Shown one piece after another: positions 25,329 to 46,235 of a stretch of 64,000 nt of DNA (the stretch's first letter is position 1; every line of letters begins with the position of its first letter). The stretch spans positions 1,674,001 through 1,738,000 of the forward strand of contig NZ_FNSD01000001.1 of the NCBI RefSeq assembly GCF_900105625.1, in the 5' to 3' direction. The notes below the pieces were generated by a model, which ran no database searches, was not told where the DNA came from, and saw nothing but the letters and a program-made list of their open reading frames with translations. The position numbers were made by a program, and so were the translations under genes. Origin of the DNA: Terriglobus roseus. GTDB taxonomy: Bacteria > Acidobacteriota > Terriglobia > Terriglobales > Acidobacteriaceae.

Positions 25329-25523
25329 TGTCGAGCAAGATATCGAAGACAAGGCGTCTAGGGCGTCTCGCTTGGCTTCAAGACGAACGTGAGAGTAGTG
25401 CTGCAGCATTTTCCGCGATACGTGCCCGGCAATAGACATGATGGTTTGATCGCTCGCTGAAGACTCTGCCAGTTCAGTGATGGCCTGATGGCGCTTCGCG
25501 CTACAGAGCCGCATCAGCCGCAC
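25329..25523 (-). pseudogene. C-terminal remnant of a tyrosine recombinase (integrase)
   Basis: The stretch HQAITELAESSASDQTIM...AGHVSRKMLQHYSHVRLEAKRDALDAL is the C-terminus of a phage-type tyrosine recombinase, including the conserved GHVS histidine and the presumed nucleophile tyrosine in LQHYSHVR. The arginine-containing HDLR motif and everything N-terminal to it are lost. Its 3' end points at tRNA-Ala 80 bases away, the usual layout of an island integrase, and the frame reads on into the tRNA complement. Confidence 0.8.
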
Positions 25524-27395: not shown

Positions 27396-27439
27396 ACAAT
27401 AGGTCGCCCGATCTTTCACTTGCTGTGACCCGCATCACC
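27396..27439 (-). promoter_or_regulatory. Crp/Fnr-type site A and -10 element for the CBS gene
   Basis: TGTGACCCGCATCACC (27424-27439) matches TGTGA-N6-TCACA in nine of ten positions. On the minus strand TATTGT (27401-27396) is a -10-like hexamer with its centre 33 bases from the site centre, close to class II spacing; a start near 27390 would leave a leader of about 60 bases. The surrounding gene-free region 27329-27665 holds nothing else I recognise. Confidence 0.65.
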
Positions 27440-27665
27440 GCAGCATGTGAGTAGAAAAAAATGCACGCAAGGAGAGGGTTATCGAGGCGGTCTGCAGATT
27501 AGCCAGATCAAGTGGTTGAAGCCACGCAGCGTCAATTACAGAGGGTGTTTCGCCGATCACTTCAACCACCCCTAATACGCTTCTCGTGTGCTGAACTCTG
27601 GCTTCTACTGACGGAGTCGAAATTAGAGAATCCTGGGCTGAATGCGAGAACGACGCTTGCTGAAG

Positions 27666-28244
27666 TCAGCTTGAGACACGAGGATTCGGTTCTTGCATGA
27701 AGAGAATTGGAACGAATTGCAATAAGGCGGTGATCGCCGTCAGGCCCAGCATCTTCACGATCAGCCACTCGGAGCTCATGAACAATGTGCCAGCCAGGGC
27801 CAGTGCTGCGGCGAGATCAACGAAACCGCACACGGCGAGAGCAATGCGCTGTACACGATGACGCCGAAGATGTCCAGACATGCGAAGCTGTGCTAACCCC
27901 AGCAGGAGTGCGTGAGGCGCAACGACCAGGCTGATGGTGCGGAGAGATACATCTGGCCGGGTCGCCAAGAAAATGCCTGATGCCAGCGCGACAGAGGCAA
28001 GGGCGGAATAGCCAGCGACCTCACGCCGGTGACTTTGCCCAAGGTCCAGAGCGGCCATTAACTCGACCAGTCCCACGCCCACGAACCCCGCGGAGACCAC
28101 GATCGAGTAAAGAAGGATGACCTCTACAGCAACTTTTGCGTCCGTGTCTTCCACGCCAAGAAGGACCAGCAAAGCGATAAAGATCGCAATCCAGAGACTC
28201 AGGATGGAAAGAACGAAGCGGTGAACCTTCAACTCTGCGCGCAT
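27666..28244 (-). CDS. six-helix membrane protein, HdeD/DUF308-like in outline
   Basis: A 192-residue hydrophobic protein with about six membrane segments (starting near residues 11, 43, 79, 104, 135 and 162) separated by short charged loops, the pattern of HdeD/DUF308 proteins. I see no sequence motif that settles the family. It follows the USP gene by 19 bases and is presumably in its operon, downstream of Crp/Fnr-type site B. A second, clearer HdeD-like protein is encoded at 33373-33936. Confidence 0.65.
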   Translation of the reverse strand: MRAELKVHRFVLSILSLWIAIFIALLVLLGVEDTDAKVAVEVILLYSIVVSAGFVGVGLVELMAALDLGQSHRREVAGYSALASVALASGIFLATRPDVSLRTISLVVAPHALLLGLAQLRMSGHLRRHRVQRIALAVCGFVDLAAALALAGTLFMSSEWLIVKMLGLTAITALLQFVPILFMQEPNPRVSS

Positions 28245-28263
28245 GGAGCACCTTCAAGCATGG

Positions 28264-29121
28264 CTACGAGCAAACGGATAGCACGGCACAGGGCGCACCA
28301 ATGATGATCTGGAATCCCGTCTTCAATGGGAGATGCGCGTTGAGCTCACCGCTCCGATGCATTCCCATGATGAGGAGTTCCGCCTTGTCCTCTGTCGCCG
28401 CTTCAATCAGAGCCTTCGTCACCTCGGAGCTATGGATCACCTTCCACTTCACCTGGTGCTTCATGGCTTGATCCGGGAGGTAGAGCGCCATCCTCGCTCG
28501 CACAGTGTCCATGGCCGCTCTTGCATCCGTCTCCAGAACCGATTCCGTGACATGCACTACCGTGAGATGAGTCGACGGTGTCATCAAAGCCGCAAGCAGC
28601 GGGATCGGTTCGAGCGAACGCTCTGTCAAATCCGTCGCAAACATCAACTGGTCGTTGCCCATTCCAAAACGCCGCTTCACATGCGGCCCGACGGTAATTA
28701 CCGGAAACCGCGTTGTCCGCAGAACCTGTTCGGCTACGGAGCCAAGAAAGAATCTCTCGATGGGATCACGGGCGTGCGTTCCCAGCACGAGGATCGCCCG
28801 CTCAAAGCGAGCAGACTCTTTCAGTAACGAACCAGCGGGGTCCTCACTCTCGATGACCTTCGTGCTCGCGGAACATTGTGAATCTTCTGCACGCTTTTTC
28901 AGTCTGCGGAGTTTGGCGTTGATGTCCCGGCGCACCTCCTCCAGCATCCAGGAGACCGGCATACGGTACCGATGGTGAATGAGGTATTGGAAGACGTGCA
29001 GGATGCACAGCTCGACATCCAGGCGACGAGCAATTTCGATCGCCGTGCCAGCCACAACTCCTGAAGTTGCGGTTAGGTCCGTTCCCAGAACTACGGCCTG
29101 TGGCTTCCATGGATGACTCAT
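28264..29121 (-). CDS. tandem universal stress protein (USP)
   Basis: Two USP domains. The first begins AVVLGTDLTATSG and ends with LGTHARDPIERFFLGSVAEQVL...PVITVGP, where the ATP motif G-2X-G-9X-G(S) has Ala for the second Gly. The second begins QLMFATDLTERS and ends LLIMGMHRSGELNAHLPLKTG, without a clear ATP motif. The ATG at 29121 is chosen over 29157 and 29139 because a class II start from site B would fall near 29131. Divergent from the cation ATPase gene. Confidence 0.88.
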   Translation of the reverse strand: MSHPWKPQAVVLGTDLTATSGVVAGTAIEIARRLDVELCILHVFQYLIHHRYRMPVSWMLEEVRRDINAKLRRLKKRAEDSQCSASTKVIESEDPAGSLLKESARFERAILVLGTHARDPIERFFLGSVAEQVLRTTRFPVITVGPHVKRRFGMGNDQLMFATDLTERSLEPIPLLAALMTPSTHLTVVHVTESVLETDARAAMDTVRARMALYLPDQAMKHQVKWKVIHSSEVTKALIEAATEDKAELLIMGMHRSGELNAHLPLKTGFQIIIGAPCAVLSVCS

Positions 29122-29164
29122 ATCGATGCCCCGAATCATCCTCTGCGACGACGCCATCAGGCTT

Positions 29165-29180
29165 TGTGACTTCCGTCACA
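29165..29180. promoter_or_regulatory. Crp/Fnr-type site B between the USP and ATPase genes
   Basis: TGTGACTTCCGTCACA matches TGTGA-N6-TCACA at all ten positions. On the plus strand TAGTTT (29202-29207) is centred exactly 32 bases away, as expected when the site is at -41.5; the start would be near 29214 and the ATPase ATG is at 29237. On the minus strand GAGGAT (29143-29138) has the same spacing. One site could serve both genes. Confidence 0.75.
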
Positions 29181-29236
29181 GAGCACCGTGCGAAGGATCG
29201 CTAGTTTGGGATCGGAGCAGTCCGCTGAAGGAATCC

Positions 29237-32047
29237 ATGACGAATGACCCGCCGGACCTTCGAAGATTAATGAATTCTCTTTCCCTGCCGGAGGTGGCTT
29301 CCTCGCTCTCCGCCGACGTTGACGGCGGCCTGAACAGTCTTGAGGCACATCAGCGGCTGAGTCGTTATGGTGCGAATACCCTTCGGTCAAAAGAGCAGGT
29401 CTCACTGCTGCGACGGTTTCTTAGCCAGTTTATCGATCCGCAGATGTATCTCCTTCTTGGAGCCACTGTACTCTCGGTCTTCGTGTCTCTCTTCCGTGAC
29501 GGGCGGTCCTTGCCGAAGGAAGCGCTTTTCATTCTGGCCATCGCCGTCACCAATGCAGTCATGGGCTTCGTTCAGGAGCTCCGTGCGGAAAAGGCCCTCG
29601 CTGAACTCAAGGATCTTCAGCCGCTGACCACCCAGGTCAAGCGAGATCGCGCGATCCTATCGATCCCGGTAGCGGAGGTGGTGCCCGGCGACCTGATCCT
29701 GCTGACTGAGGGACATCTGGTACCGGCGGATGCGCGCCTCATCCACAGCAGTCAACTTACGGTCACAGAATCGATCCTGACAGGCGAAAGCGATGCCGCA
29801 AGGAAAGCGCCGGGGCAAACGGCATCCACAGCGTCCCTCGGTGAGAGAACCAACATGCTCTTCTCCGGCACCTCCGTGATCTCCGGAGAAGGCCTTGCGC
29901 TCGTGTGTGCCACGGGCATGCACACTGAGATTGGCCAGATTGCTTCGCTCATCGCGTCGGCGCCGGAAGAAACGACGCAATTCCAACAACGACTGACCAC
30001 GCTCAGCAAACAGCTTGCTCTTGCTGTCATCCTGGTGGGCGCGGTCACTGTTGTCGCCTTCGCGGCTGTCGTGAAACATCCAACGCCAGCGTTGCTGCTG
30101 AACATCCTTCTGTTTGGCGTCTCGCTCGGTGTAGCTGCGGCTCCTGAGGCACTCGGAACCATCATCACGCTGGCTCTTGCTATCGGTGTGCGACGGATGG
30201 CGAAGGCAGGTGTCATCGTTCGCAAGCTCAACGTGATGGACACCCTTGGCGGGGTGGACACGATCCTTTGTGACAAGACCGGAACACTTACCTGCAACTA
30301 GTTATCCGTCGTCACATTGCATGCAGACGGCAGGTCGGGCAGCGCGCCTGCACCGGATCTGGCCGCATCGCCGCAAGACGATATGGTTCTGAACGTTGCA
30401 CTGGCGGCAGCGATGGCAAACGACGCGCACCCGGCTGAGCAGAAGGGTTCCAAGGCATTCACCGGAGATGCCATGGACGTGGCCCTGTGGGAATTCGCCG
30501 CGAACGCAGGAGTTACCCCCGACTCAATTCACCAGCGATTTCGGCTCATCGCGAAACTTCCCTTCACGTCCGAGAGGAAACGGATGACGGCGTTCGTTGA
30601 AGATGGTATCTGGCAGAAGCAAGTGGTGTTCAGCAAGGGCGCACCGGAATATCTGCTGGATCTCTGCACGCAGGAGCAATGGCAGGGCGAGGCGATACCG
30701 CTAACTCCGCACCGGCGAGCGCAGATCCTGCGAGAAGTGGAGCAGCTATCCGATCAAGGGGAGAAGGTTATCGCTCTTGCGACGAAGATCCTTTCCGACG
30801 GTATCGATCAGGAACATACGGAAGACCGTAGCCGCTTGACTGCAGAAGAGCGGGAGCTGACTTTCCTGGCCCTGATTGGAATGATCGATCCACCACGACT
30901 CGAGGTGCGGGCTGCAATCGTCGCAGCACACCGCGCAGGCATCCGCACAATCGTCGTCAGTGGAGATCATCCCCATACGGCCCTCGCCATTGCTCGCCGC
31001 ATCGGCATGACGCAGAATCAGCTTGTCATCTCGGGGAGTGAGTTGCGAAAGCTCACAGATCCTGAATTGTCTCTACGCCTGAGGGACTGTTCCGTGTTTG
31101 CGAGGATCGATCCGGAAGACAAGCTCCGTGTCGCGCGTGTCCTTCAGCAATCGGGACACATCCTTGCCATGACCGGTGATGGTGTGAACGATGCTCCTGC
31201 ACTCAAGACAGCCGACGTGGGAATCGCTATGGGAAGCGGAACGGATATTGCAAAGGAGACTGCCGACATGGTGCTGACGGATGACAACCTCAACACCATC
31301 CTCCAGGCAGTCCGGCAAGGAAGAGTGCTGACCGCGAATGTTGCAAAGGCTGTCACCTTCCTCTTCACCACGAACTTATCCGAAGTCATCACACTCTTTA
31401 TCGTCGCGATCGCTTCCGCCACACATGCGCTCCATTCGGTGGACGAGTTGGTCCTGCCCCTGACCACACCCCAAATCCTGTGGATCAATTTGATTACGGA
31501 CGCTGCCCCTGCCATTGCACTCGCACTCGCACCTGCCTCGCAGAACGTGATGGAGGGCCGGGAAGCGGAGTCTTCTCGGAAGATGCTTACAGCCTCGTCC
31601 CTAGGGCAGCTCGCCGTAGCAACACTACTGATGGTGGCAGTAACTTTGGCCTTGTATGTCCACGCCGTTGACGCCGGGGCAACGGTGGGCTACCAGAGAT
31701 CCGTAACACTGACTGCGCTGATCTTCTCTCAGGCGTTTTATGCCATCGCCGTGCAAACAGGTCGTGAGAGTCTTCTGACCTACTTTCGAACTCTGAGCTG
31801 GCTGCATGGAGCGATCTTGGTCTCCGTGGGACTCCATATCGCGATGCTCTTGATCCCCGCCGCGCGCGGGGGCCTCGGTTTGGCGCCGCTTGACCGCCAG
31901 GGCTGGATCGAATGTTCGCTTGCTCCGGTCATCGTTCTCCTCGGCAGTCAATTGCAGAAGTTCTTCGTCGATCGGAACTGGCGCAATCCTGACTCGCCGC
32001 CGGTCCCCCTCGCCGCAACGGAAGACGCTTTGTGGGGAGCGCGATGA
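29237..32047 (+). pseudogene. P2-type cation-transporting ATPase interrupted by an in-frame TAG
   Basis: Resembles calcium/magnesium-type P2 ATPases, such as mycobacterial CtpF of the DosR regulon. The frame has the actuator motif LTGESD, a PEGL-like membrane motif in the form APEALGTII, the phosphorylation motif DKTGTLT (Asp346), VFSKGAPEYLL in the nucleotide domain, the hinge TGDGVNDAPALK and a C-terminal membrane domain. At codon 355 (30299-30301) TAG replaces the Glu expected in LTCNELSVVT; the reading frame continues unshifted to 32047, 936 residues in all. Other motifs look intact. A separate start at 30317 would make an enzyme half without the phosphorylated Asp. Confidence 0.85.
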
Positions 32048-33102
32048 CACCCGCCAACCGCGACAGGCAGCTGTCGCCACAGACCAACGACAATGCAGCA
32101 CTCCTGCTCGTCACCTGCGGTGGGGTCGTCCTCTCTCTGCTGCTGTTGAAACCGTTAATCGGGGCCATCACCGGCGCACTGCTTCTTTATGCTTTCACTC
32201 GCCGCTTCTATGGATGGTGTCTCCGCCGGATTCCGAACGCCACCGTAACCGCCGCCCTCGTGGTCTGCCTGACAACGCTGAGCTTGGTGATCCCTACCGT
32301 CCTCGCACTGCGAACCGTCGGTATGCGGGCGATCGCAGCGATCGAGATGATCCGACAGCAGATTGCAGTATCCGGATCTCCAAGGCTCTTCGAGCGCATG
32401 TCCGGTGGCAGATTGGTTCTGGCCTCTCTGGGCGGTCGCGATACTCTGAGCCGGATTGCCCAGCAGATCCTGGGATTGACCTCCAATCTGGCCATGTCAT
32501 TTCTTGGTGGAACCGTTGTCGTCCTCACCCAGTCCATCATCATGTTGTTTCTGCTGTACTTTCTTCTTCGCGACGGTGAGAGAGCCCTCGTCCGGTTGCA
32601 TACTTATCTGCCATTTCGTTCTTCCGAGTTCCGCTTCCTGACTGGTCGTGTGACACGCTCCGTTCATGCCACGGTCTTCGGAAGGCTGGTCATTGCTCTC
32701 GTTCAGTCCTTGCTCTCCTGGGTGCTCTTCGGCGCATTACACGTTCCGGGTTCCCTGCTGCTCGCAAATCTCACCTTCGTTTGCGCTCTCATACCCACGT
32801 TTGGAGCTGTCCTTGTCTGGTTCCCAGTCATGCTGTGGCTCCTTTTCCTGCATGCGTGGACGCGGGCCTTGATCTTGCTGGCACTTGGGACACTTCTGGT
32901 CAGCACCGCAGACAACGTCCTTTATCCAATCGTTGTGGGATCGCGTGCACAGATGCATACAGCGCCGATGTTCCTGTCGATTCTTGGAGGCATGTGGATG
33001 TTCGGGATCAGCGGCATCTTCCTGGGCCCTCTGCTCTTCACTGTCACTGACGCTCTCCTTGCCATCATGAGACATCGGGACCCGGTCTCGCCCGGAGGCT
33101 AG
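32044..33102 (+). CDS. AI-2E family membrane permease
   Basis: A 352-residue protein with about eight membrane segments and the family's C-terminal core (LLFLHAWTRALILLALGTLLVSTADNVLYPIVVG, IFLGPLLFTVTDALLAIM) that includes the DN..YP signature. AI-2E proteins are putative transporters: some export autoinducer-2, others exchange sodium for protons. Its ATG overlaps the ATPase stop (ATGA at 32044-32047), so it was translated with the ATPase and is now downstream of the internal TAG. Confidence 0.86.
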   Translation: MTPANRDRQLSPQTNDNAALLLVTCGGVVLSLLLLKPLIGAITGALLLYAFTRRFYGWCLRRIPNATVTAALVVCLTTLSLVIPTVLALRTVGMRAIAAIEMIRQQIAVSGSPRLFERMSGGRLVLASLGGRDTLSRIAQQILGLTSNLAMSFLGGTVVVLTQSIIMLFLLYFLLRDGERALVRLHTYLPFRSSEFRFLTGRVTRSVHATVFGRLVIALVQSLLSWVLFGALHVPGSLLLANLTFVCALIPTFGAVLVWFPVMLWLLFLHAWTRALILLALGTLLVSTADNVLYPIVVGSRAQMHTAPMFLSILGGMWMFGISGIFLGPLLFTVTDALLAIMRHRDPVSPGG

Positions 33103-33372
33103 CAGGTGTTGTCTGCCTTCGCTATGGAGAGCAGAGTCCAGATGCGCTGTCGCAGACCGGCGATTCCGCTCGGCCTCTGCAGGTAGTCGGCTTAGTGAAC
33201 GACATGGTGATGCGCCCAACCTGACAGAGAAAGATCGAAAACACACGCGCCGGTATGGTCTCGACATCAGAACGTGTAACGCTGAATGGGTATATTCGCT
33301 GCGTCCGCGCAGCGTTCATCCTACGAACTTATTCGCCGGAGAACTTAGGGCGAACCGTAGCAAATGCGTCCA
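33103..33372. other. gene-free region between convergent genes
   Basis: 270 bases separate the ends of the permease and HdeD-like genes. A seven-bp GC hairpin (33297-33303 with 33308-33314) is the only clear structure and lacks a T tract. No gene or regulatory site is recognised. Confidence 0.5.
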
Positions 33373-33936
33373 CTAGATGCCATCCGCTAACATCACCGTC
33401 CTGCGCACCGCAGTGGCAAGCGAAAGCCGCGCCAGACCACTCACGATCAGATTCACGCCCACGAGCGTGCCAATTGCCCACGCGGCACTGGATGGCCAGT
33501 TCTCCCAAATCATGAGTCCGAGTAGCAGCGTCACGATTCCGTTAAGAAGTATCCATCCGGACCGCAAAAGCGGTGAACCAACGATGAAAAACAGTATCTC
33601 CACCACTCCCTCGAAGCAGAGAAGAAGCGTGAGCCAAAGCGTAAGGGTTGTGAGCCCGACCGATGGATGCGCCACAAGGTAGACTCCGACAGCCAGGTCG
33701 AGAGCACCAAGTAACGTTCGCCAGAGGAACGATCCGATGCGCCACGCAGCGAACGCATACACAAGGTAGGCGATGCCGCTGAGAGCGATGAGCCAGCCGA
33801 CAACAATCGTGACGCCCAGCCCGGCTGCGCTGGGAAGAGCGATTGCAAGGATCCCGAGCACGATCATCAAGATCGACGAAACGCTCAGCGCTCTGCCAAA
33901 CATCTTGGGTGAAGTCTGTGATGATGCCGCCATCAT
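33373..33936 (-). CDS. HdeD family membrane protein (DUF308)
   Basis: A 187-residue protein with six membrane helices in three pairs (ILMIVLGILAIALPSAAGL, VGWLIALSGIAYLVYAF, LLGALDLAVGVYLVAHP, LTLLLCFEGVVEILFFI, ILLNGIVTLLLGLMIW, GTLVGVNLIVSGLARL). HdeD proteins are linked to acid and high-density stress. The ATG at 33936 has AGGGG upstream. Site C lies about 100 bases upstream, with GACACT 32 bases from its centre on this strand. Confidence 0.88.
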   Translation of the reverse strand: MMAASSQTSPKMFGRALSVSSILMIVLGILAIALPSAAGLGVTIVVGWLIALSGIAYLVYAFAAWRIGSFLWRTLLGALDLAVGVYLVAHPSVGLTTLTLWLTLLLCFEGVVEILFFIVGSPLLRSGWILLNGIVTLLLGLMIWENWPSSAAWAIGTLVGVNLIVSGLARLSLATAVRRTVMLADGI

Positions 33937-34034
33937 GATGCCCCTTTTCGAAAGCTCGGCGCGGCGTTTGGGGTCGTTGAGTTCCACAAAGCGGCAAGCT
34001 CAAGGCCAGTGTCCGATCCGAGATTCTCGTCCGA

Positions 34035-34050
34035 TGTGATCGGGATCACC
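34035..34050. promoter_or_regulatory. Crp/Fnr-type site C between the HdeD and USP genes
   Basis: TGTGATCGGGATCACC matches nine of ten consensus positions and is almost the same sequence as site E. Hexamers with A at position 2 and T at position 6 lie 32 bases from the centre on both sides: CAATCT (34072-34077) toward the USP gene and GACACT (34013-34008) toward the HdeD gene. Confidence 0.7.
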
Positions 34051-34154
34051 ACTTCTCATCGTTATTTCAGTCAATCTTGTGTTCGCCGGATTGGTTTCCA
34101 GGCAGGACGAGACTTGCGGTCTCGACGGCAGACCCATTTGAGATTGGAGAACGC

Positions 34155-35009
34155 ATGTTGATCGAACACTCTCAAGAGACGATTGATACGGCGTCCGTAA
34201 AAGCTCCGCTAAAACTCCAGAAGATTGTGATTGCGTACGATGGGTCGAATTCAGCGAAGCGAGCGCTCCACGATGCGGAGTTGCTTGCCTTCCAACACCA
34301 CGCCGAACTGCTGATTCTTTTCGTCGATGGTGCCGACGCGATCTCAGAGGAAACCGGGCTGTCCAACGCCGCGAACGCGAGTCTCCAGGTGACTGCCCAC
34401 GGTATCCACAACCAGTGGATCCACCGCATCGGAGCGGTTCACGAAGTAATCCATGAAGTTTGCTGCGACTTCGCTGCTGACCTGTTGATGATCGGAGCGT
34501 ACGGGCATGGCAGCCAGGAGCGGCAGACACTGGGATCGAGCACAGAAAAGCTGCTTCGCACCGAATCGTGTCCCGTTCTCACCTACGGTCCCGCAGTGGC
34601 GCAGGATCTGTTTGCGCGCGAACGTGGCGGTCCTGTTCTCTTCACCATTGCTCTGCCATGCATTCCAGCTCAATTACCCAAAGCCCTGAGCCTCATAAAG
34701 CTATTCGACGTAAGCATCGAGGTGTTTCACACGGTTGCTGGTCCTCGGCGCCATGATGCCCACTGGTTTGAGAACGAATGCCTGAGCGTTGCGAAGTCCT
34801 TTCGGGAGCAGGGAGTACACGCGCAATGGAACGTCGTCTACGGAGATCCGGCTCTGTCCATCTGCAACATGAGTGACCAGATTAAGAGCCCTTTCATCCT
34901 GATGCCCTTAAAGAGACGAAACGAGTTGTCAACCACTACGTCGGACAACGTCGCAGCCCGCGTTGTTCGCCGAGCAACTGTTCCAGTTCTGAGCTATCGG
35001 TTCAACTGA
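34155..35009 (+). CDS. tandem universal stress protein (USP)
   Basis: The first USP domain starts IVIAYDGSNSAKRALHDAELL and carries a complete ATP motif, GAYGHGSQERQTLGSST (G-2X-G-9X-G-S), so it probably binds ATP. The second domain (VLFTIALPCIP...PFILMPLKRRNELS) has lost the motif. The start at 34155 has GGAGA eight bases upstream. It is followed after 57 bases by a phosphoribosyltransferase gene in the same direction. Base composition is low for the window: 28 of 60 bases at 34141-34200 are G or C by hand count, against 41 of 60 at 24121-24180. Confidence 0.9.
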   Translation: MLIEHSQETIDTASVKAPLKLQKIVIAYDGSNSAKRALHDAELLAFQHHAELLILFVDGADAISEETGLSNAANASLQVTAHGIHNQWIHRIGAVHEVIHEVCCDFAADLLMIGAYGHGSQERQTLGSSTEKLLRTESCPVLTYGPAVAQDLFARERGGPVLFTIALPCIPAQLPKALSLIKLFDVSIEVFHTVAGPRRHDAHWFENECLSVAKSFREQGVHAQWNVVYGDPALSICNMSDQIKSPFILMPLKRRNELSTTTSDNVAARVVRRATVPVLSYRFN

Positions 35010-35066
35010 AGTTCCAGGTTGGACTGAGCATGAGTCGGGCAGCATGCCGTCACGCTGAGGTTTTCG

Positions 35067-35792
35067 ATGATGCTGGCTGATCGCAAAGCTGCGGGTAAGC
35101 AATTAGCTGCTAGGTTGCTGGACTACGCAGGCCATGACAACGTGCTTGTTCTTGGCATTCCTCGCGGAGGAGTCCCCGTCGCGTTCCAGATTGCGTCGCG
35201 GTTGGATCTGCCACTCGACATCTTTCTCTCGCGCAAGTTAGGAGTACCCGCGCACGAGGAACTCGCATTTGGTGCGATCGCCACGGGCGACGGACGCTAT
35301 CTCGACCAAACGATCGTCCAGAAAGCTGGCCTCTCGCCAGTGCAGGTTGAGGAGGTTACGCAACGCGTCCAAAAGATATTGAGCGAGCGCGCCGCGCTCT
35401 ATCGAAGTGAGCAAGCACGCCTCAATGTGACCGGTAAGACAGTCCTATTGGTCGATGACGGGATTGCTACGGGCGCGAGCGTGTATGCCGCTATCCTGGC
35501 GTTGCGACAGATGAAGCCAGCAAAGATGGTGGTGGCAGCACCCGTTGTGGCTGCATCCACTCGCGCATGGCTGCAGAAGGAAGTCGATGCATTGGTCTAC
35601 CTACTCTCGCCAAAAGATTTTCAGGCCGTAGGGCAGTTCTACACTGATTTCGAACAAACAACAGACCGGGAAGTCATCGCCTTGCTGGCCGAGTCACGTC
35701 AGCATGCAAAATCTGGAATTTCGGCAATGTGCCATCAGAGCCTTTACGCATCGGACATCTGCGAATCTGATGATCGACATGACGTTCGATGA
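35067..35792 (+). CDS. phosphoribosyltransferase family protein
   Basis: The PRPP-binding motif VLLVDDGIATGASVYAA is intact, with the N-terminal VLGIPRGGVPVAFQIASRL and SRKLGVPAHEELAFGAIA segments that mark a stress-associated PRTase group. Related domains occur in the mycobacterial DosR-regulon protein Rv0571c. The nucleobase or other acceptor is unknown. The last 25 residues (MCHQSLYASDICESDD...) look non-conserved. It marks the right end of the first island block; 35793-35922 has no gene. Confidence 0.85.
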   Translation: MMLADRKAAGKQLAARLLDYAGHDNVLVLGIPRGGVPVAFQIASRLDLPLDIFLSRKLGVPAHEELAFGAIATGDGRYLDQTIVQKAGLSPVQVEEVTQRVQKILSERAALYRSEQARLNVTGKTVLLVDDGIATGASVYAAILALRQMKPAKMVVAAPVVAASTRAWLQKEVDALVYLLSPKDFQAVGQFYTDFEQTTDREVIALLAESRQHAKSGISAMCHQSLYASDICESDDRHDVR

Positions 35793-35922
35793 ACCTCCTA
35801 CAAATTGAACCTGCTTGACGCACGGGCCAAGGCAATTGCCTCTTGCTGGGCGCCGTTTGGACTCCGTCCCGCTAGGGTCCAATCGAAAGACGTCCGCTGG
35901 ATGCCTTCAATAGACTGGAAGC

Positions 35923-37317
35923 ATGCTGCGCGTACGTTCGCTTTTTCGTTTGCATCTCCCTTCCCAGCTTTGCTTCGCACTGCTGCTCTTCGCTTGCCAG
36001 ATTTCAGCACAGCAGTGGAACAGTCCGCATGACGGCAATCCGTTTATCCCGGGCTATTACGCCGATGCATCCGTCGTACAGACAGCGGAGGAGACGTACG
36101 TCTTCGCTACAGAAGACCCGTGGGGAGGCGATCACCTGGGGTGCTGGCGCTCCACTGACTTCGCGATGTGGAAGTCGTGCACGCTGAACTGGCCTACGAA
36201 GCAAGCTGCAGTGAGCGCAACGGCGAATGGCAACAAGGTCTGGGCGCCATCGGTCATTCGTGCGAAGAACGGCCGCTACTACATGTATGTCTCGATCGGC
36301 AGCGAGGTGTGGGTGGGCACGGCGGATCGCCCACTTGGTCCGTGGCGTAACGCGCTGGGTTCGCGCCCGCTCATTCCCGCTACCTTCCATCGCGCATACA
36401 ACATGATCGATGCGGAGGTGTTTCAGGATACGGATGGCACCGCGTATCTCTATTGGGGATCTGGGTTGCATTGGGTCAACGGACATTGCTTCGCCGTGCG
36501 TCTCAAGCCCGACATGATCACCTTCGATGGCGAGCCGCAGGATGTGACGCCGCCGAGTTACTTCGAAGGCCCCTTTATGTACAAGCACGCGGGCCTCTAC
36601 TACCTGATGTACTCGCAGGGCAAGGCCACCGATAGCACCTACAATGTGCGTTACTCCATCGGTGATACACCCTTCGGCCCGTTCCGTGAGGGCCGCAACA
36701 GTCCACTGCTGAGTACGGATGAAGCGCAACAGATCCTTGGGCCGGGACATCACGCAATCTTCGATCGCGCGGGCAAGACTTACATCCTCTACCACCGCCA
36801 TAGCCTGCCCTTCGATGCAAAGATAGTTCGGCGACAACTCTGCATTGACGAATTGCAATTCGACGCGGATGGCGAGATAAGACGTATCACGCCGACACAC
36901 ACCGGCCCTACCCTGTTGCGCGTTGCCCGCAAGACCAAAGAAGCACTGGGCGCTGATGTTACTGCGTCATCGTCACTCGATGAGTTACACCATGCGAGCG
37001 CATCGGTGGATGACAACTATGCAACGCGCTGGCTGCCTGCCACGGACGACCACGCACCATGGCTGCAGCTTAACCTGCGCAGGACTACGCAACCTCATCG
37101 GCTTGAGATTCGATTCGAATATCCCGAGAAAACCTATGCCTTCCGTCTGCAATCATCGCTTGACGGCAAGATATGGGCGGATATAACAACAGGCGTCACG
37201 CATCAAAGCGGATCGCCTGTTGTGATGGATCATCTGCCGAAGAGCCGGTATCTGAGAATGTCATTCCCTGAGCCCAGCTCAGAACCGGTCTCAATCTTTG
37301 AGTGGAATGTTTTTTAG
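35923..37317 (+). CDS. secreted GH43 glycosidase with C-terminal discoidin-like domain
   Basis: A signal peptide (cleavage likely after ISA29) precedes a five-bladed propeller of family GH43, enzymes that release arabinose or xylose. Candidate catalytic residues are Asp48 in PGYYADAS (base), Asp in AYNMIDAEVF and Glu in YFEGPFMYK (acid). From about residue 325 the protein becomes an F5/8 discoidin-like carbohydrate-binding domain (VTASSSLDE...DNYATRWLPATDDHAPWLQL). It converges with GH92, their stops overlapping by four bases. Confidence 0.9.
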   Translation: MLRVRSLFRLHLPSQLCFALLLFACQISAQQWNSPHDGNPFIPGYYADASVVQTAEETYVFATEDPWGGDHLGCWRSTDFAMWKSCTLNWPTKQAAVSATANGNKVWAPSVIRAKNGRYYMYVSIGSEVWVGTADRPLGPWRNALGSRPLIPATFHRAYNMIDAEVFQDTDGTAYLYWGSGLHWVNGHCFAVRLKPDMITFDGEPQDVTPPSYFEGPFMYKHAGLYYLMYSQGKATDSTYNVRYSIGDTPFGPFREGRNSPLLSTDEAQQILGPGHHAIFDRAGKTYILYHRHSLPFDAKIVRRQLCIDELQFDADGEIRRITPTHTGPTLLRVARKTKEALGADVTASSSLDELHHASASVDDNYATRWLPATDDHAPWLQLNLRRTTQPHRLEIRFEYPEKTYAFRLQSSLDGKIWADITTGVTHQSGSPVVMDHLPKSRYLRMSFPEPSSEPVSIFEWNVF

Positions 37318-39620: not shown

Positions 39621-39696
39621 AGGAGTCCAGCGCGATCAAGAGTATGGGATGTTGGGTGTTTCAGGCGAGAAAGAAATGCAGGGCGCAAAGTAAATC

Positions 39697-39741
39697 GGGC
39701 TGTGAGCGGCAACCGGTATGCACGGTCGCCGCTCACAGCCC
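39697..39741 (-). terminator. strong hairpin between the receptor and GH92 genes
   Basis: A perfect 14-bp stem (39697-39710 with 39728-39741), with a further ACCG/CGGT pairing inside the loop, starts six bases past the receptor stop codon. Downstream on the minus strand the sequence is only moderately T-rich (GATTTACTTT). It could attenuate transcription into GH92. Confidence 0.75.
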
Positions 39742-39746
39742 ATCTG

Positions 39747-42700
39747 TTAGAACGTCAGTTTCAACCCGGCCTGCTGGATGCGCGGTGCGACAGGACCAAT
39801 CGCCGTGATGCGGCCATAGGTGCTGCTGCCAACCGTGTTGTCCGGCGTCGCGAAGCTGGTGTGATTGAAGGCGTTGAACATCTCCCAACGGAACTGCAGG
39901 TGGTAGTGATCCATCGCGGTCCAGTTCTTCATCAATGCCAGGTCACCGTAGTTCAGGCCCGGCCCCTGCAGCAGGTTGCGACCGGACGTACCGAAGGTGC
40001 CCGCTGCATTCTGCGCAAATGCCGTCGTTGTGAAGTACTGCTGCAACCACTGCGACTTGCCACCCTGATGTGTCTGCAGGTTCACGTTCACGTTCCTGTC
40101 AGCACGATCCTGGTTCTGCAGCGATCCGGAGTTGTTGTTGCCGTTGCCACCGTTGATGCCGAAAGGCAGACCGGAACGCATCGTGTAGATGATGGAACCT
40201 TCCCAATCACCCAGCGCACCGCGCAGGAAGGCATTGTGTCCCTTGAGCGAGGGCGTGGTGTACACCACGTTGGTTACGGAGTTCAGCGGAATGTTCAACG
40301 ACGAGATACCGCGGTTGTAACGGACGTTGTAGGGGTTTGGCAGGTATGCCTTGGCGAACGTCACGTTGCCCGACGAGATGATGTCGATGTTTTTCGACCA
40401 GGTAAAGCTCGACTGGAACTGCAGACCGTGCGACATGCGCTTTTCCAGTTGCAGCTGCAGCGAGTGATAGCTGGCGGTGCCGAAGCTTTCGATATCCACC
40501 AGCTGCCCGATCGCCGTGTTGGGACGAACACCGCGTAAGGCAGCCGTAGCGATCTGGCCGGGGTTGCGGTCGATGCCCGTGGTCTGGTGGTACGACTGGC
40601 TGCCAACGTACGCGAGGTGCGCTGCAAAGTCCTTCCCGAACTGCTGCTCGACGGAAGCATTCCAGCTCTGCGTCATGCCCAGCTTGAAACCCGGTGAGAA
40701 CGCCGCACTGACCGAAGTCTGGCTACCGAAGTTAAAGTTCGATGCCGGCGCGGCGCCGCCGTATACGAAGGGCGGGAAGGGACTGGTGAAGTTGGTCGCG
40801 GCGTAGTTCTTCCAAGGATTGGAGAGCTGAATATCCGGCGTGGTCAGTGTTGCCTGCAGCGTGTACGTCGGGCTGAAGGGGCTGACGTCCACCGTGTGGT
40901 TGTACAGCGAGTACGGCAGCGGTGCGGAGAACACACCGAAGCCGGCGCGGATCGCAGTCTTCGGAGTCCACTGATAGGCGATCGCCATGCGCGGTTCGAA
41001 GTAGCCGTAGGTGGCCTTCACCAGCGACTGCGGCACGCCACTGTCACCCGGGAAGACCAGGCCGCGGGGCGCGCCTGGGAACATCGTGCTCTGCTGTCCC
41101 GGCGAGTACACAACACCACGACCACCCTTTGCGTTGGGCATGAAGTTCGGATCCCAGCGCAGACCTGCGGTAATGGTCAGCTTCGGCGTCGCGCGATACT
41201 GGTCCTGCGCGAAGGCACCGAACAGATTGCCCTGCACCTCTGCCAGTTCGCCGGCGCCCTGCAGGTACGTTCCAACCTTACCCAGCAGATAGTCTGCAAG
41301 GCCAAGGCCCGTGTAGTAACCGCTGAACGTCGGGATCGCGTTGGCCGGGTAGGAGGTCAGCTCACGAGCCCACTGGTGCCACAGGTCGGCACCGGCTGTC
41401 AGGGTGTGGTTGCCCAGCGTCTTGGTGAAGCCTTCGTTGAAGCCGAAGCTGTTGCGGCGCTCACCGGTGAAGCCGGAGTTGCTGGCCGAGAAGGCGCCCG
41501 TGACCGAGAAGGTACCGAGATAGCAGGTGCCGGCTGGATCAGAAATGTTCGCCACCTGCGACAGGCAGAACTGCGAACCGCTGGACGTCAATGTGGGAGC
41601 ACTGGTGCTGACGTTCATCTGGTTCCAGAAGAGCGACAGTTCATTCACGGCCGTCGGCGAAATCGTCCAGGTGTGGTTTAACACCTCGTTGAACAGCTTG
41701 CCCGACTTTGCCGTGACCGCTGCCAGCGCGTTACCAGGCTGCAGTGCCTGCGGACGGTTGTAGTACTGAATGAAGCTGCGCAAAGCCAGCCGCTGGTTCT
41801 GGCTCAGGTTGTAGTCGATGCGGCCCGTTGCCTCGTGAAAAACCTCGACCGTCTTCGGCGTCGTGTAGTAATACAGGCCGGTCGCAGGGTCCGTTCCCAG
41901 CGGGAACACGGTGCGGGCGATCGCCAGTGCAGCCGAGTCATACTGGTTCGGGTTGATTTGATTCTTCTTGCCGTTCACGGTCGTGAAGGGAGCCCGCAGC
42001 GTGCCGCTGTACGAACTGAAGTCGCCGTTCAGCATGGCGGCCGTCGGCAGGTTCACGCTGTTGCCGGTGCTCGCCGACGACTGACGCGTCTGCTGATAGT
42101 TCGCGAAGAAGAAGGCGCGATCCTTGAGGATCGGTCCGCCGAGGAAGCCACCGAACTGGTTGCGCTTGAGCGGATCGACGGCATGTGAGAAGTAGTTGGC
42201 CGAGTTCAGCGCGCTGTTGCGGATGAACTCAAAGACGCCACCGTGGAATGAGTTGGTACCGCTCTTGGTCTCGATGGAGACGACCGCACCCGGCGAGAAG
42301 CCGTAGTGCGCGTCGAAGTTATTGCTGATGACGCGGAACTGTCCGGTCGCGTCAGAGTTAGGCGAAGGCGCCGCCAGCAACATGTAGGTGTCCATGTTGG
42401 GCACACCGTCCAGCAGGTACAGCGTGCTGCCCTGACGGCCGCCCCCGGCGCTGGCGCCTGACTCATTCGGGAAGGTCGTCTGGTTCTGCTGCGTACCGGC
42501 GCTGGTGTTCAGAATGTTGACGATGCCCGGCGAAAGCAGCACCAGGCTGGATGGGTCACGGCCGTTCAGCGGCAATTCCCGCACGGCCTGCTCGCCCACC
42601 GTATTGCTGACCTCGGCGTTGGTGGCGTTCAGCAGCGGTGTATCAGCTGTGACGTCGACCACCTCATCCTGGCTGCCGACGATCAGGGCAATGGGCAGTG

Positions 42701-43007
42701 TCGCCTGCTGGCTGACGGTAAGCTGGATGCCCTTCTGCTGGAACTTCTGGAAGCCCTCGTGCGACACCGTCACGATGTAGTTGCCAGGGGGGACGGTTGG
42801 GAACTGGTAAAGACCGGAATCATTCGACTTCGCGGTCATGGTCAGATTGGTCTCGGTATTCACCAGCGTGATCTGGCTGTCAGGAACGGCGGCACCGGTG
42901 CTGTCATTCACGACACCCGATAAAACTGCTGAGCCACCCTGTGCGTGGGCCATGGCGGCCCCCGTCATCAGAACCGCAATCGTTGGCCTCAAAAACTTGT
43001 GCATCAT
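39747..43007 (-). CDS. Oar-like TonB-dependent receptor with carboxypeptidase-regulatory domain
   Basis: A signal peptide (AVLMTGAAMAHA) leads to a CarboxypepD_reg domain (residues about 27-110: AVLSGVVNDSTGAAVPDSQITLVN...), a plug domain (VRELPLNGRDPSSLVLLSPG, GGGRQGSTLYLLDGVPNMD), and a large beta-barrel ending in QQAGLKLTF with the usual C-terminal aromatic. At 1,086 residues it matches the Acidobacteriota family, which takes up large substrates, probably glycans. No SusD partner is present. The ATG has GAGGA five bases upstream. Divergent from a membrane-anchored regulator gene. Confidence 0.92.
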   Translation of the reverse strand: MMHKFLRPTIAVLMTGAAMAHAQGGSAVLSGVVNDSTGAAVPDSQITLVNTETNLTMTAKSNDSGLYQFPTVPPGNYIVTVSHEGFQKFQQKGIQLTVSQQATLPIALIVGSQDEVVDVTADTPLLNATNAEVSNTVGEQAVRELPLNGRDPSSLVLLSPGIVNILNTSAGTQQNQTTFPNESGASAGGGRQGSTLYLLDGVPNMDTYMLLAAPSPNSDATGQFRVISNNFDAHYGFSPGAVVSIETKSGTNSFHGGVFEFIRNSALNSANYFSHAVDPLKRNQFGGFLGGPILKDRAFFFANYQQTRQSSASTGNSVNLPTAAMLNGDFSSYSGTLRAPFTTVNGKKNQINPNQYDSAALAIARTVFPLGTDPATGLYYYTTPKTVEVFHEATGRIDYNLSQNQRLALRSFIQYYNRPQALQPGNALAAVTAKSGKLFNEVLNHTWTISPTAVNELSLFWNQMNVSTSAPTLTSSGSQFCLSQVANISDPAGTCYLGTFSVTGAFSASNSGFTGERRNSFGFNEGFTKTLGNHTLTAGADLWHQWARELTSYPANAIPTFSGYYTGLGLADYLLGKVGTYLQGAGELAEVQGNLFGAFAQDQYRATPKLTITAGLRWDPNFMPNAKGGRGVVYSPGQQSTMFPGAPRGLVFPGDSGVPQSLVKATYGYFEPRMAIAYQWTPKTAIRAGFGVFSAPLPYSLYNHTVDVSPFSPTYTLQATLTTPDIQLSNPWKNYAATNFTSPFPPFVYGGAAPASNFNFGSQTSVSAAFSPGFKLGMTQSWNASVEQQFGKDFAAHLAYVGSQSYHQTTGIDRNPGQIATAALRGVRPNTAIGQLVDIESFGTASYHSLQLQLEKRMSHGLQFQSSFTWSKNIDIISSGNVTFAKAYLPNPYNVRYNRGISSLNIPLNSVTNVVYTTPSLKGHNAFLRGALGDWEGSIIYTMRSGLPFGINGGNGNNNSGSLQNQDRADRNVNVNLQTHQGGKSQWLQQYFTTTAFAQNAAGTFGTSGRNLLQGPGLNYGDLALMKNWTAMDHYHLQFRWEMFNAFNHTSFATPDNTVGSSTYGRITAIGPVAPRIQQAGLKLTF

Positions 43008-43179
43008 TCAAATCCTCGCGAAATCCGGACTTAGGCAGCGTCATAGCGCGCTTCTCTAAGTGCCCGGCCATCCTTCGCGGCGCGAAATACGACTGGTAAG
43101 TTAATTCACCGTAAAGCTCGACGAACGCCCGGAGACCTCTTGCTTTCAGTGACATAGAGATAACTCTTTACAGTGAGAT

Positions 43180-43197
43180 ACCCTGTATTAGCAGGGT
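43180..43197. promoter_or_regulatory. 6-bp inverted repeat before the regulator gene
   Basis: ACCCTG and CAGGGT are perfectly complementary arms separated by six bases, in the divergent region between the receptor and the regulator. It could be an operator for the regulator or a short leader hairpin; it lies inside the coding sequence if the GTG at 43173 is the true start. Confidence 0.45.
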
Positions 43198-43220
43198 TTT
43201 CAGGAAGAGAGTATTCGAAG

Positions 43221-44606
43221 GTGCAGGCAGAAGAGGGCAAACAGACCGTAGTTTCGGTGACTGACCGGGAACGGCAGGAAGCTCTGGAACGCGTTCTGAT
43301 AAGTCCGCTGCTCAACCGCTCTGTCCGCCTCCGCCGCTTCCTGAGCTTCGTCGTGGAAGAGAGTATGAAGGACGACGCTGCCGCGCTTACCGAGCAGCGA
43401 ATCGGCGTTGCTCTCTTCGACCGCTCCCCCTCCTATGACACCGGGGCGGACAATATTGTTCGCGTGAATGCCACGGAACTGCGCAAGCGGCTGGAGCAGT
43501 TCTATTCGGGAGACGGCATCGCCGAGACGCTGCTCATCGAAATTCCTCGCGGGTCGTACAAGCCGGTCTTCATCCGACGTACGGTTGTGGCCTCTGCTAC
43601 CGAGGAGCAGCCCCCGGCTATCGAACAGCAGGACGAGCTGCTCCCTCCCGTCACCAGCACAGATCCCGCGCTCGCAGAGCGCCGCGCCTCCGCCGTGAAC
43701 AGTGGAAGCCTTCTGACCCGGGCAGCGATCGCCGCGCTCGTTCTAGTCACGGCGCTCCTGGCCATTCAGACTTACCGCGCACATAGTCTGGCGGCGCAGC
43801 TCGAACCATGGCGGGCGCAGCCGGCGCTGCAGGCCCTGTGGAGGAACTTTTTCGACAGCGATACAGAGACGACGATCGTGCTGGCCGACACCTCGTTCGC
43901 CATGGCGCAGGACGTGTCCGGCTATCGTCTGACGCTCGACGACTACCAGCGGCATCGGTTTGGTGAGGTCGCCCAGCAGTATGCCCTTCAGCCGAACGGT
44001 GGAGCGGCGAACTCCTCTGTCCTCTCCCTGCTCTTCAGCCGCTACAGCGGCAGCATCGGCGATTTCTACACGGCCCGCCGCATCCTCGCGTTGCAACCGG
44101 CCTCATCCGCAGTGAAGATCCAGTTCGCTCGCGATTTCACCGGGGAGCTCTTGCGGCACGACTCGACCATCCTGCTCGGCAGCACCCGTTCCAATCCTTG
44201 GGTCGAACCCTTCCAGGCGAAGCTTCTCTATCGCCTGCAGAGTTCGGCAGATGGACACAGTATTGAGGTCCATGTCGAAGCGCCTCAATCCGGGGAGCAG
44301 TCCGTTTATGCCACCTCGTCCGATCCCAACCGGACCGACGGCTTTTGTGTCATCGCGCTGATGCCGAGCCTGGGCGGCTCGGGCAAGACCATGATCATCG
44401 CCGGAACCGACTCCCAGGCGACCGAAGCGGGCGGAGACTTCGTAACGCAGGAAGCCACGCTGAAGCAGTTGCAGGCACGTCTGCCTGCAGCCAGCTTCGA
44501 CAACTTCCAACTGCTGCTGCGCACCTCGCGCACCTCCGGCAGTCCCCTGGCCGCCGAAATCGTCTCGGTACGTGGCAACACCGCACCCCACCCCGCCACT
44601 CGCTGA
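43221..44606 (+). CDS. membrane-anchored ToxR-like regulator
   Basis: N-terminal part: VLISPLLNRSVRLRRFLSFVVEE, EQRIGVALFDRSPSYDTGADNIVRVNATELRKRLEQFY and LIEIPRGSYKPVF, a pattern I know from Acidobacteriota proteins beside TonB-dependent receptors and interpret as a DNA-binding winged helix. One membrane helix follows (AAIAALVLVTALLAIQTY), then a periplasmic domain of about 260 residues without a recognised family. The start is uncertain: GTG at 43173, 43221 or 43257. The layout suggests that it senses a periplasmic signal and controls the divergent receptor. Confidence 0.7.
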   Translation: MQAEEGKQTVVSVTDRERQEALERVLISPLLNRSVRLRRFLSFVVEESMKDDAAALTEQRIGVALFDRSPSYDTGADNIVRVNATELRKRLEQFYSGDGIAETLLIEIPRGSYKPVFIRRTVVASATEEQPPAIEQQDELLPPVTSTDPALAERRASAVNSGSLLTRAAIAALVLVTALLAIQTYRAHSLAAQLEPWRAQPALQALWRNFFDSDTETTIVLADTSFAMAQDVSGYRLTLDDYQRHRFGEVAQQYALQPNGGAANSSVLSLLFSRYSGSIGDFYTARRILALQPASSAVKIQFARDFTGELLRHDSTILLGSTRSNPWVEPFQAKLLYRLQSSADGHSIEVHVEAPQSGEQSVYATSSDPNRTDGFCVIALMPSLGGSGKTMIIAGTDSQATEAGGDFVTQEATLKQLQARLPAASFDNFQLLLRTSRTSGSPLAAEIVSVRGNTAPHPATR

Positions 44607-44994
44607 TTCCGGGATTACTCGATGATCGGGGCCTGATCTCACGCTCAGGATGGAGTGCCTCTCCGCACCAGGCCCCACGCCGAGCCTGGAACTTCGATTG
44701 CAATCGGCAGCAGCAAATTGCTTCAGGCGAGTGGTCTGTCGACGGTGGAACAGCGAAGACTGCTGTGTACCAGAAGGCGTGATCCGTTTCGTGTGATTCA
44801 CATCACAGCGTTTCCGTTCATGGCTCCGCAGACTGATGCAGTCCCCTGATACCTGGAATCGGCCCGCAGAGTTGCGCCGGCATTCGACTTCTGGACCAGG
44901 CTGCGAACCGATCGGAGAACGAGATTCACGAAAGCGCTGAGTCCACCCGCATGGAAGGTAGCACTCCGAATGAGAGCCGCGACGGGATGCGGCC
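44607..44994. other. gene-free region upstream of ackA
   Basis: 388 bases without a credible gene. The notable element is Crp/Fnr-type site D at 44792-44807. Composition and the short open frames show nothing else recognisable. Confidence 0.55.
44792..44807 (+). promoter_or_regulatory. Crp/Fnr-type site D upstream of ackA
   Basis: TGTGATTCACATCACA is a full match to TGTGA-N6-TCACA, and its six-base half-sites are perfectly complementary. CAGACT (44829-44834), centred 32 bases away, is a weak -10 candidate. A start near 44841 would leave a leader of about 150 bases before ackA, longer than at the other sites. Confidence 0.65.
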
Positions 44995-46131
44995 ATGATG
45001 ACGGAGCATTCCGAGTTAATCCTTACCATCAATCACGGCTCTTCCTCGCTGAAGATCGCCTTCTTCGAAGTTCATGGTCATACCGTTCATTGCGTCTTAC
45101 GGGGCGCTGCGGAAGCGCTTGGCAACCCGCCGTCGCGCGCATTCTTGTGCGACAGCATAAGATGCGTCCTCTTCAACACCGAGAAGACGTTCGCTTCGCC
45201 AGAAAAGGCACTCGAAGTCCTGTATGCGGCCGCGATCCGGATCCTGCGGAGACGCCCGACCTGCGTCGGGTACCGCGTGGTTCACGGCGGCCCGCACCTC
45301 CTGAAGCATTGCCGCATCGACGACGAAGTTCTGATGACTCTGAAAGAGTCGATCCACTTCGCGCCGCTCCACATACCGCAGGCTCTCACGATCATGCAGC
45401 ACATGCGGACGGTCTTGCCGTATGCGGTCCACTGCGCATGCTTCGATACGACCTTTCACCGCACCATGCAGGAGGTGGCTACACGGCTACCGCTGCCGCA
45501 GCGTTACTTCGACGCAGGCATTCGCCGCTATGGCTTCCATGGCCTTTCCTATGCGTCGATTGTCGAGCGCCTGGGCAGTGACGTGCCCGAGCGGATGATC
45601 ATTGCGCACCTGGGCAATGGATCCAGCCTCTGCGCGCTTCGTCATGGCAATTCCATCGACACCACTATGTGCTTCACACCCACGGGCGGCATCCCGATGG
45701 CGACACGGTCTGGCGATCTTGATCCCGGAGTCTTGCTCTTCCTGATGAGGACCTACGGACTCGGTGCGGACGAACTGGAGGCCATCGTCAATCGGCAGTC
45801 CGGCCTGGCAGCGTTAACCGGAGGCGGCGGGGACATGCGCGCGATCCTGAAGGGTCGGAACGATGGAAACGCCTGTGCCGAGCTTGCGATCCAGACCTAT
45901 ACGCGGTCGGTCCGAAAGGCGATCGGCGCCTATGCCGCTCTGCTGGGAGGTGTCGATCGACTCATCTTCACTGGCGGCATCGGCGAGCACAGCAACGAAA
46001 TCCGCGACATGGTCTGCGGCGGGCTGGAGTCCCTGGGCATACGACAGGGCGACCGTGGCAAAGGGAACGTCATGGTGATGGCCGCAGGAGAAGAGCAGGA
46101 GATCGCTCACATCTGCCGAACCATTGGATGA
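44995..46131 (+). CDS. ackA: acetate kinase
   Basis: AckA converts acetyl phosphate and ADP to acetate and ATP, giving substrate-level ATP when respiration is limited. The 378-residue product has LTINHGSSSLKIAFF (signature 1, with His where Pro or Ala is common), VGYRVVHGGPHL, CFDTTFHRTM, YGFHGLSYASI, AHLGNGSSLCALRHG and FTGGIGEHSNEIR. No phosphotransacetylase or phosphoketolase gene is in the window. It sits with a USP gene, away from central metabolism genes, which points to a stress or low-oxygen role. Confidence 0.92.
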   Translation: MMTEHSELILTINHGSSSLKIAFFEVHGHTVHCVLRGAAEALGNPPSRAFLCDSIRCVLFNTEKTFASPEKALEVLYAAAIRILRRRPTCVGYRVVHGGPHLLKHCRIDDEVLMTLKESIHFAPLHIPQALTIMQHMRTVLPYAVHCACFDTTFHRTMQEVATRLPLPQRYFDAGIRRYGFHGLSYASIVERLGSDVPERMIIAHLGNGSSLCALRHGNSIDTTMCFTPTGGIPMATRSGDLDPGVLLFLMRTYGLGADELEAIVNRQSGLAALTGGGGDMRAILKGRNDGNACAELAIQTYTRSVRKAIGAYAALLGGVDRLIFTGGIGEHSNEIRDMVCGGLESLGIRQGDRGKGNVMVMAAGEEQEIAHICRTIG

Positions 46132-46166
46132 CTTCCGAGAGTGCGCGGCTACGACGCTTCTCGAAG

Positions 46167-46182
46167 TGTGATCGGTATCACT
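46167..46182 (+). promoter_or_regulatory. Crp/Fnr-type site E upstream of the third USP gene
   Basis: TGTGATCGGTATCACT matches nine of ten positions and differs from site C at only two bases. TACTCT (46204-46209) is centred exactly 32 bases from the site centre. The implied start near 46216 falls downstream of the ATG at 46212 and supports the start codon at 46236. Confidence 0.72.
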
Positions 46183-46235
46183 GCCCGTAAATCTGCTCGT
46201 TTTTACTCTTGATGCAGAGGAAGGGAGCGAAGGCG

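Follow-up and report, generated by a model that had tools for sequence, protein, structure and literature searches.

A 64,000-nucleotide stretch of the Terriglobus roseus genome (contig NZ_FNSD01000001.1 of assembly GCF_900105625.1, positions 1,674,001 to 1,738,000; hereafter the window) carries two blocks of stress genes, and upstream of these genes lie five palindromes of the kind read by Crp/Fnr-family regulators. An initial annotation of this DNA had tied the two blocks into one regulon through these sites, each accompanied by a -10-like hexamer at a fixed distance. The five sites are genuine operators within a genome-wide set, and the explanation we favour, with a probability of roughly 0.7, is that they are operated by an FNR-like low-oxygen activator that reads DNA in the manner of CRP and acts at class II promoters. 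The 4.81-Mb genome containing the window is referred to below as the own genome (G000). All five palindromes lie where they had been placed, with 0 mismatches to TGTGA-N6-TCAC (sites are given without strand).

27424..27439: CRP-type site 1 (TGTGACCCGCATCACC), exact match, upstream of the CBS gene
27396..27401, minus strand: -10-like hexamer TATTGT, centre 33 bases from site 1
29165..29180: CRP-type site 2 (TGTGACTTCCGTCACA), perfect, exact match, divergent promoter
29138..29143, minus strand: -10-like hexamer GAGGAT, centre 32 bases from site 2
29202..29207, plus strand: -10-like hexamer TAGTTT, centre 32 bases from site 2
34035..34050: CRP-type site 3 (TGTGATCGGGATCACC), exact match, divergent promoter
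34008..34013, minus strand: -10-like hexamer GACACT, centre 32 bases from site 3
34072..34077, plus strand: -10-like hexamer CAATCT, centre 32 bases from site 3
44792..44807: CRP-type site 4 (TGTGATTCACATCACA), perfect, exact match
44829..44834, plus strand: -10-like hexamer CAGACT, centre 32 bases from site 4
46167..46182: CRP-type site 5 (TGTGATCGGTATCACT), exact match, kept in T. roseus DSM 18391 (L313)
46204..46209, plus strand: -10-like hexamer TACTCT, centre 32 bases from site 5, kept in T. roseus DSM 18391

Two of the palindromes (29165 and 44792) are indeed perfect over ten positions, and a hexamer with A at its second and T at its sixth position (A2/T6) is centred 32 bases from the site in six of the seven promoters, the distance being 33 for the CBS gene. 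The products of the genes beside the sites were also recognised correctly as a CBS-domain protein, three universal stress proteins (Usp), a P-type ATPase, two HdeD-like proteins (one scoring slightly under the Pfam cut-off) and an acetate kinase.

26861..27328 (likely start 27328), minus strand: CBS-domain protein, Pfam PF00571
27666..28244, minus strand: HdeD-like membrane protein, weak DUF308 match (24.4 bits, cut-off 25), downstream of and co-directional with Usp
28264..29121, minus strand: universal stress protein with two Usp domains, profile match
29238..32047, plus strand: frame of a P-type cation ATPase, with a single in-frame TAG (30300-30302), the two halves read separately and unjoined
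32032..33102, plus strand: AI-2E-type permease, downstream of the ATPase; same order and upstream site in G047 (L295)
33373..33939, minus strand: HdeD-like protein (DUF308), Pfam match
34155..35009, plus strand: universal stress protein, profile match
35067..35792, plus strand: phosphoribosyltransferase-domain protein, downstream of the Usp gene, profile match
44995..46131, plus strand: acetate/propionate kinase family protein, profile match
46236..47213 (likely start 46236), plus strand: universal stress protein, counterpart in T. roseus DSM 18391 with the same start

The GH43/GH92 module lies between the two stress blocks, and genome searches with PF13545 and PF00027 gave no match in the window range, in agreement with the statement that no Crp/Fnr gene is found there. 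The cation ATPase described at this locus is a P-type ATPase frame, although an interrupted one; its TAG comes right behind the DKTGTLT motif and is either a genuine interruption or a sequencing artefact. Gene starts were assigned with our own simple codon-score caller, which overlooked the CBS gene and put the start of regulator A in the wrong place (see below).

The exact pattern TGTGA-N6-TCAC occurs at 49 places in the own genome (60 strand matches, 11 places on both strands) versus 17 places for the reversed pattern (19 strand matches, two on both strands), so the motif is more frequent than expected at random, and 10 of the 11 perfect palindromes are intergenic according to our gene caller. 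Across 150 genomes of the family, TGTGAN6TCACA was counted 1607 times and its reversed form 111 times. Places with up to one mismatch within the window number 22 versus 14.8 expected, a value reached by 5 of 100 shuffles; these counts were set aside as not decisive, and the weight rests on exact sites, their position and the whole genome because the window counts lack a clear excess. Two clusters, jointly about 35 kb out of 4.8 Mb, account for 12 of the 49 places: the window holds five of them, and the other seven lie at C1:499.8-515.9 kb. Besides four Usp and a Crp/Fnr protein, the latter, second cluster (0.50-0.52 Mb) encodes a PAS histidine kinase, a nitroreductase, a VIT-family protein, a P-type ATPase and response regulators. 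The proposal that the two window blocks form one regulon is supported, but the regulon exceeds these blocks and its regulator cluster lies elsewhere. Six of the nine Usp genes of the own genome have a site with up to one mismatch, and a seventh has AGTGATGCCAATCACC.

The fixed spacing recurs at promoters outside the window, where the sample comprised loci holding exact TGTGAN6TCAC: in 8 of 19, an A2/T6 hexamer and the site centre are exactly 32 bases apart, versus a mean of 0.79 at other offsets (binomial P ~4e-7). Over all 26 own-genome promoters (23 admitted automatically and three by hand, namely the CBS promoter and the two flanking the regulator A site), the count at 32 is 14 versus a mean of 1.03 elsewhere, none of the three hand-admitted promoters contributing. 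Among 54 flanks of 27 intragenic sites, two had a hexamer at 32 (mean 2.0). In the retrieved stretches, which hold a subset of each genome's sites, T. roseus DSM 18391 (G151) showed 8 of 19 at 32 (mean 1.05), and G047 showed 5 of 29 at 32 and 8 of 29 at 33 (mean 1.62). As judged from the -10 hexamer alone, the sites would be centred at about -41.5, as in class II promoters.

In 80 loci of relatives, with counts uncorrected for shared ancestry, a second and higher hexamer peak appeared at 54/55. Among the 45 flanks with a hexamer at 54, a second site lies exactly 22 bases downstream in 22 cases (up to two mismatches) or 38 cases (up to three), none being found at the control offsets 17 and 27, and the hexamer is again 32 bases from the downstream site. 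The peak was considered as a rival promoter class and rejected, tandem sites 22 bases apart being its best explanation. Such tandems, a TGTGATTTAAATCACA-like site followed by (A/G)GTGA-N6-TCACT, precede Usp-like genes of relatives at L111, L124, L125, L126, L134 and L135.

The initial annotation suggested looking for a Crp/Fnr gene with a recognition helix suited to TGTGA, and this yielded a candidate with a site upstream of its own gene. HTH_Crp_2 matches 15 proteins of the own genome, 12 of them over the cut-off, and the CRP-type helix RET[VI]xR is found in two of these 12 Crp/Fnr genes, A and B, in the form RETVTR. Exactly the same two carry the combination of C-x2-C-x8-C with a VCSG cysteine. 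Regulator A (C1:508427-509107) is encoded inside the second cluster, and its self-site AGTGATTGATATCACA lies 68 bases upstream of its start; regulator B, at about 3124 kb, adjoins ctaD, which has a site. Regulator A has the two-domain Crp/Fnr fold, and in an alignment of 50 sequences the N-terminal cysteines C4, C7 and C16, the beta-roll cysteine C55 and the helix R190-E191-T192-x-T194-R195 are invariant; the E..SR helix for TTGAT is absent. Eleven NCBIfam families match the regulator, all far under their cut-offs. The site between the stand-alone ctaD adjoining regulator B and a glmS-like gene is a perfect palindrome (G000 C1:3121394), kept in T. roseus DSM 18391 but without the hexamer at 32.

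The association between site and regulator extends through the family. In relatives, the site upstream of the regulator gene was exact in 8 of 79 cases, within one mismatch in 23 and within two in 41, the corresponding numbers for the reversed pattern being 0, 2 and 10. An A-like protein was detected at E <= 1e-25 in 129 of the 150 genomes, and the median number of sites per genome was 9 with the regulator versus 2 without it (P = 1.2e-7; control P = 0.73). The number of sites correlated with the number of A-like proteins across the 150 genomes (Spearman 0.68; control 0.11). The regulator of T. roseus DSM 18391, the closest named relative among the loci compared, is 87% identical to A. The cluster of regulator, Usp and sites occurs twice in that genome (C1:2597312-2616058 and 3057831-3076577), the matched sites being identical and the offset constant at 460,519 bases.

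We propose that the palindromes serve a low-oxygen, energy-shortage regulon, that activator A, with B as a second member, would recognise TGTGAY-N4-RTCACA through its CRP-type helix, and that its dimer, centred at about -41.5, would sit beside RNA polymerase on the -10 element, as in class II activation. In the putative FNR-like sensor half, C4, C7, C16 and C55 would hold an iron-sulfur (Fe-S) cluster stable only at low oxygen. Oxygen shortage may then switch on the Usp, CBS and HdeD-like proteins and the cation ATPases, together with acetate and ethanol metabolism, terminal oxidases and the activator's own gene.

The low-oxygen signal is suggested by published expression in two relatives, which supports induction of the corresponding gene types. 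Genome G047 is very probably Acidobacterium capsulatum, because it has one ctaD match and cydAB, as PMC8407424 describes. According to the parts of the reports consulted, A. capsulatum responds to falling oxygen by raising usp, cydAB, pta and adhP, and T. roseus by raising ctaD (PMC11636273, PMC8407424), the A. capsulatum response being recorded in nanoxia, at 0.1 umol/l oxygen (PMC11636273). In G047, cydA has the upstream site TGTGACTCCTGTCACA with TAGGTT at 32, sites lie upstream of pta and adhP, and three of seven Usp genes have a site with up to one mismatch (four with up to two). The stand-alone ctaD of T. roseus DSM 18391 has a perfect upstream site and is 96% identical to the likewise site-bearing ctaD of the own genome. 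Two observations weigh against this interpretation: poxB, raised 45-fold in the A. capsulatum data as far as consulted, has no site in G047, and the sites of pta, adhP and ctaD have no hexamer at 32. Several adhP or pta homologues exist, and the site-bearing ones may not be those measured in that study. A histidine kinase of A. capsulatum is also reported as induced 84-fold. The shared stress regulon of the initial annotation is retained as a regulon, but its signal points to low oxygen rather than to general stress. Elsewhere in G047, a site with TAACGT at 32 (L299 2857) precedes genes for a protoporphyrinogen oxidase and for a radical SAM protein of the TIGR04053 family, a relative of heme b synthase, which is in line with control of haem supply; at L292 3352 a perfect site with TACACT at 32 precedes an L-glutamate gamma-semialdehyde dehydrogenase gene.

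That the window sites are chance palindromes picked by eye is extremely improbable: the mildly raised one-mismatch counts in the window would fit such a view, but the genome-wide and family-wide excess, the recurrence of the spacing in two further genomes and at promoters that the initial annotation had not covered, and the co-occurrence of site number with one regulator type argue against it. The regulator might instead be a true CRP, controlled by a cyclic nucleotide and governing a carbon- and energy-starvation regulon, its cysteines being structural or metal-binding. We regard this as unlikely. The Glu and Arg of the MtbCRP beta-roll, which contact cyclic AMP (cAMP), align with Met and Tyr in A, and the position next to them, 94, is an invariant Glu in the alignment of 50. 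The invariance of the four cysteines, the closest structures (holo-FNR, by a small margin) and the oxygen response of the corresponding genes in published transcriptomes also speak against a true CRP.

The window sites could be worked mainly by B, or by A and B together, the regulon then being the overlap of two sensors; such a division of labour seems somewhat unlikely, though clearly less so than a true CRP. B shares the recognition helix and cysteine signature of A and adjoins the site-bearing ctaD, and genomes G031 and G095, with a distant A match alone and no Usp match, nevertheless have 5 and 8 palindromes. On the other hand, the gene for A lies within a Usp cluster and is itself preceded by a site. 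Of the six genus genomes assessed for both proteins, Usp matches are present in the four that have an A orthologue (own, G128, G148 and, via L096, G151) and absent from the other two.

Comparison with relatives bears on the origin of the first stress block. The matching place in T. roseus DSM 18391 has the order AlaX-like gene, tRNA-Ala(cgc), site, Usp and GH30. The window Usp at 46.2 kb and its counterpart are 73% identical over 304 residues, the GH30 proteins are 78% identical over 432, and the -10 hexamer before the shared Usp reads TATTCT in T. roseus DSM 18391 versus TACTCT in the window. A segment of about 21 kb (window 25174-46131) at the tRNA is missing there; besides the first stress block and the acetate kinase, it holds GH43, GH92 and an outer-membrane beta-barrel (TonB-receptor-like) protein. 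The tRNA forms its left border and is abutted by an integrase remnant.

25174..25249, plus strand: tRNA-Ala(cgc), left border of the segment that T. roseus DSM 18391 lacks
25185..25523, minus strand: integrase C-terminal remnant adjoining the tRNA (24.4 bits, Pfam cut-off 27.1)

Block 1 looks like an acquired island that added genes to a regulon already present, gain here rather than loss in T. roseus DSM 18391 being inferred because of the integrase remnant. A second copy of the tRNA end, which would mark the far border, was looked for and none was found.

Comparing the same upstream regions in relatives gave a divided result: Usp genes of the genus keep the site, but the acetate kinase site has no counterpart in the eight nearest relatives. 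The site is present in 14 of 23 Usp loci with up to one mismatch and in 22 with up to two, versus one of 23 for the reversed pattern within two mismatches. These loci represent 23 of the 25 matches outside the own genome (contig-edge L199 and one match without a locus were left out) and include three pairs that are the two copies of the T. roseus duplication; with the duplication counted once, the numbers become 12 and 19 of 20. A conserved acetate kinase site was rejected: the ackA loci of these eight (L177-L184, 44-53% identical) all lack a site, even with two mismatches allowed. Of seven more distant ackA loci, two fit the pattern with two mismatches, and one of these two fits the reversed pattern equally well (a weak match, L193, lay outside the sample); the second ackA of the own genome has a two-mismatch site. 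The order of P-type ATPase and AI-2E permease with an upstream site recurs in G047.

FNR and CRP are established regulators, and clusters of Usp genes induced at low oxygen, such as lxa, have been described. FNR, an oxygen-sensing activator with an oxygen-labile [4Fe-4S] cluster, recognises TTGAT boxes through an E..SR helix. The regulator described here resembles E. coli-type FNR in its overall fold, N-terminal cysteine cluster, class II sites and the predicted activation, at low oxygen, of genes for oxidases and fermentation, but has TGTGA rather than TTGAT as its predicted target. FNR has four essential cysteines, three N-terminal and one central. The regulator has four invariant ones, but their spacing is C-x2-C-x8-C, and the fourth lies in strand 50-56 (VCSG), the equivalent of FNR C122 falling in strand 103-109. 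With CRP, GlxR and MtbCRP it shares the R-E-T-V-x-R helix, which conforms to R-E-x3-R, and the site TGTGA-N6-TCACA; unlike them, it has lost the cAMP-contact residues and gained a cysteine cluster. Bacillus Fnr and ArcR-type proteins are FNR-type regulators reading a CRP-like TGTGA-N6-TCACA box; the cluster of Bacillus Fnr is described as held by C-terminal cysteines, in contrast to the N-terminal ones here. The regulator is probably FNR-like in its working, lies outside the canonical TTGAT-reading group and, judged by its residues, is no cAMP receptor. It may tentatively be placed, at a little under even odds, in a separate class of Crp/Fnr oxygen sensors that bind Fe-S through C-x2-C-x8-C and a VCSG cysteine on another beta-roll strand and have a CRP-type helix.

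In Burkholderia cenocepacia, the parts of PMC9104464 and PMC3759415 consulted describe six universal stress proteins of the lxa locus induced at low oxygen, a uspA adjoining the Crp-Fnr gene anr2 away from lxa, and a CBS protein raised under micro-oxia. The possible resemblance lies in a Usp cluster with a Crp/Fnr gene, the induction here being suggested by papers on two relatives; the phylum is another one. RedB was considered as a member of the same subgroup and found no support, the word cysteine being absent from the text of PMC9603854 consulted.

Acidobacteriaceae are abundant soil bacteria whose response to nanomolar oxygen has been measured, its regulator being unnamed in the literature searched. 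The words FNR and CRP are absent from the main text of PMC11636273, PMC8407424 and one further acidobacterial paper; for the A. capsulatum nanoxia response, for which the consulted text of PMC11636273 names no such regulator, a candidate is offered here. No description of such a regulator in Acidobacteria was recognised in a search covering titles and abstract openings, with most subscription journals outside it. A candidate regulator, its DNA site, promoter geometry and target list are thus available for cultured strains (T. roseus DSM 18391 and A. capsulatum), and the apparent union of FNR-like sensing, CRP-like DNA reading and a relocated cysteine suggests a bearing on the evolution of Crp/Fnr sensors. 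Further intergenic sites of the own genome, at L014, L024 15361 and L035, lie beside un-annotated genes, which are possible extra members of the regulon.

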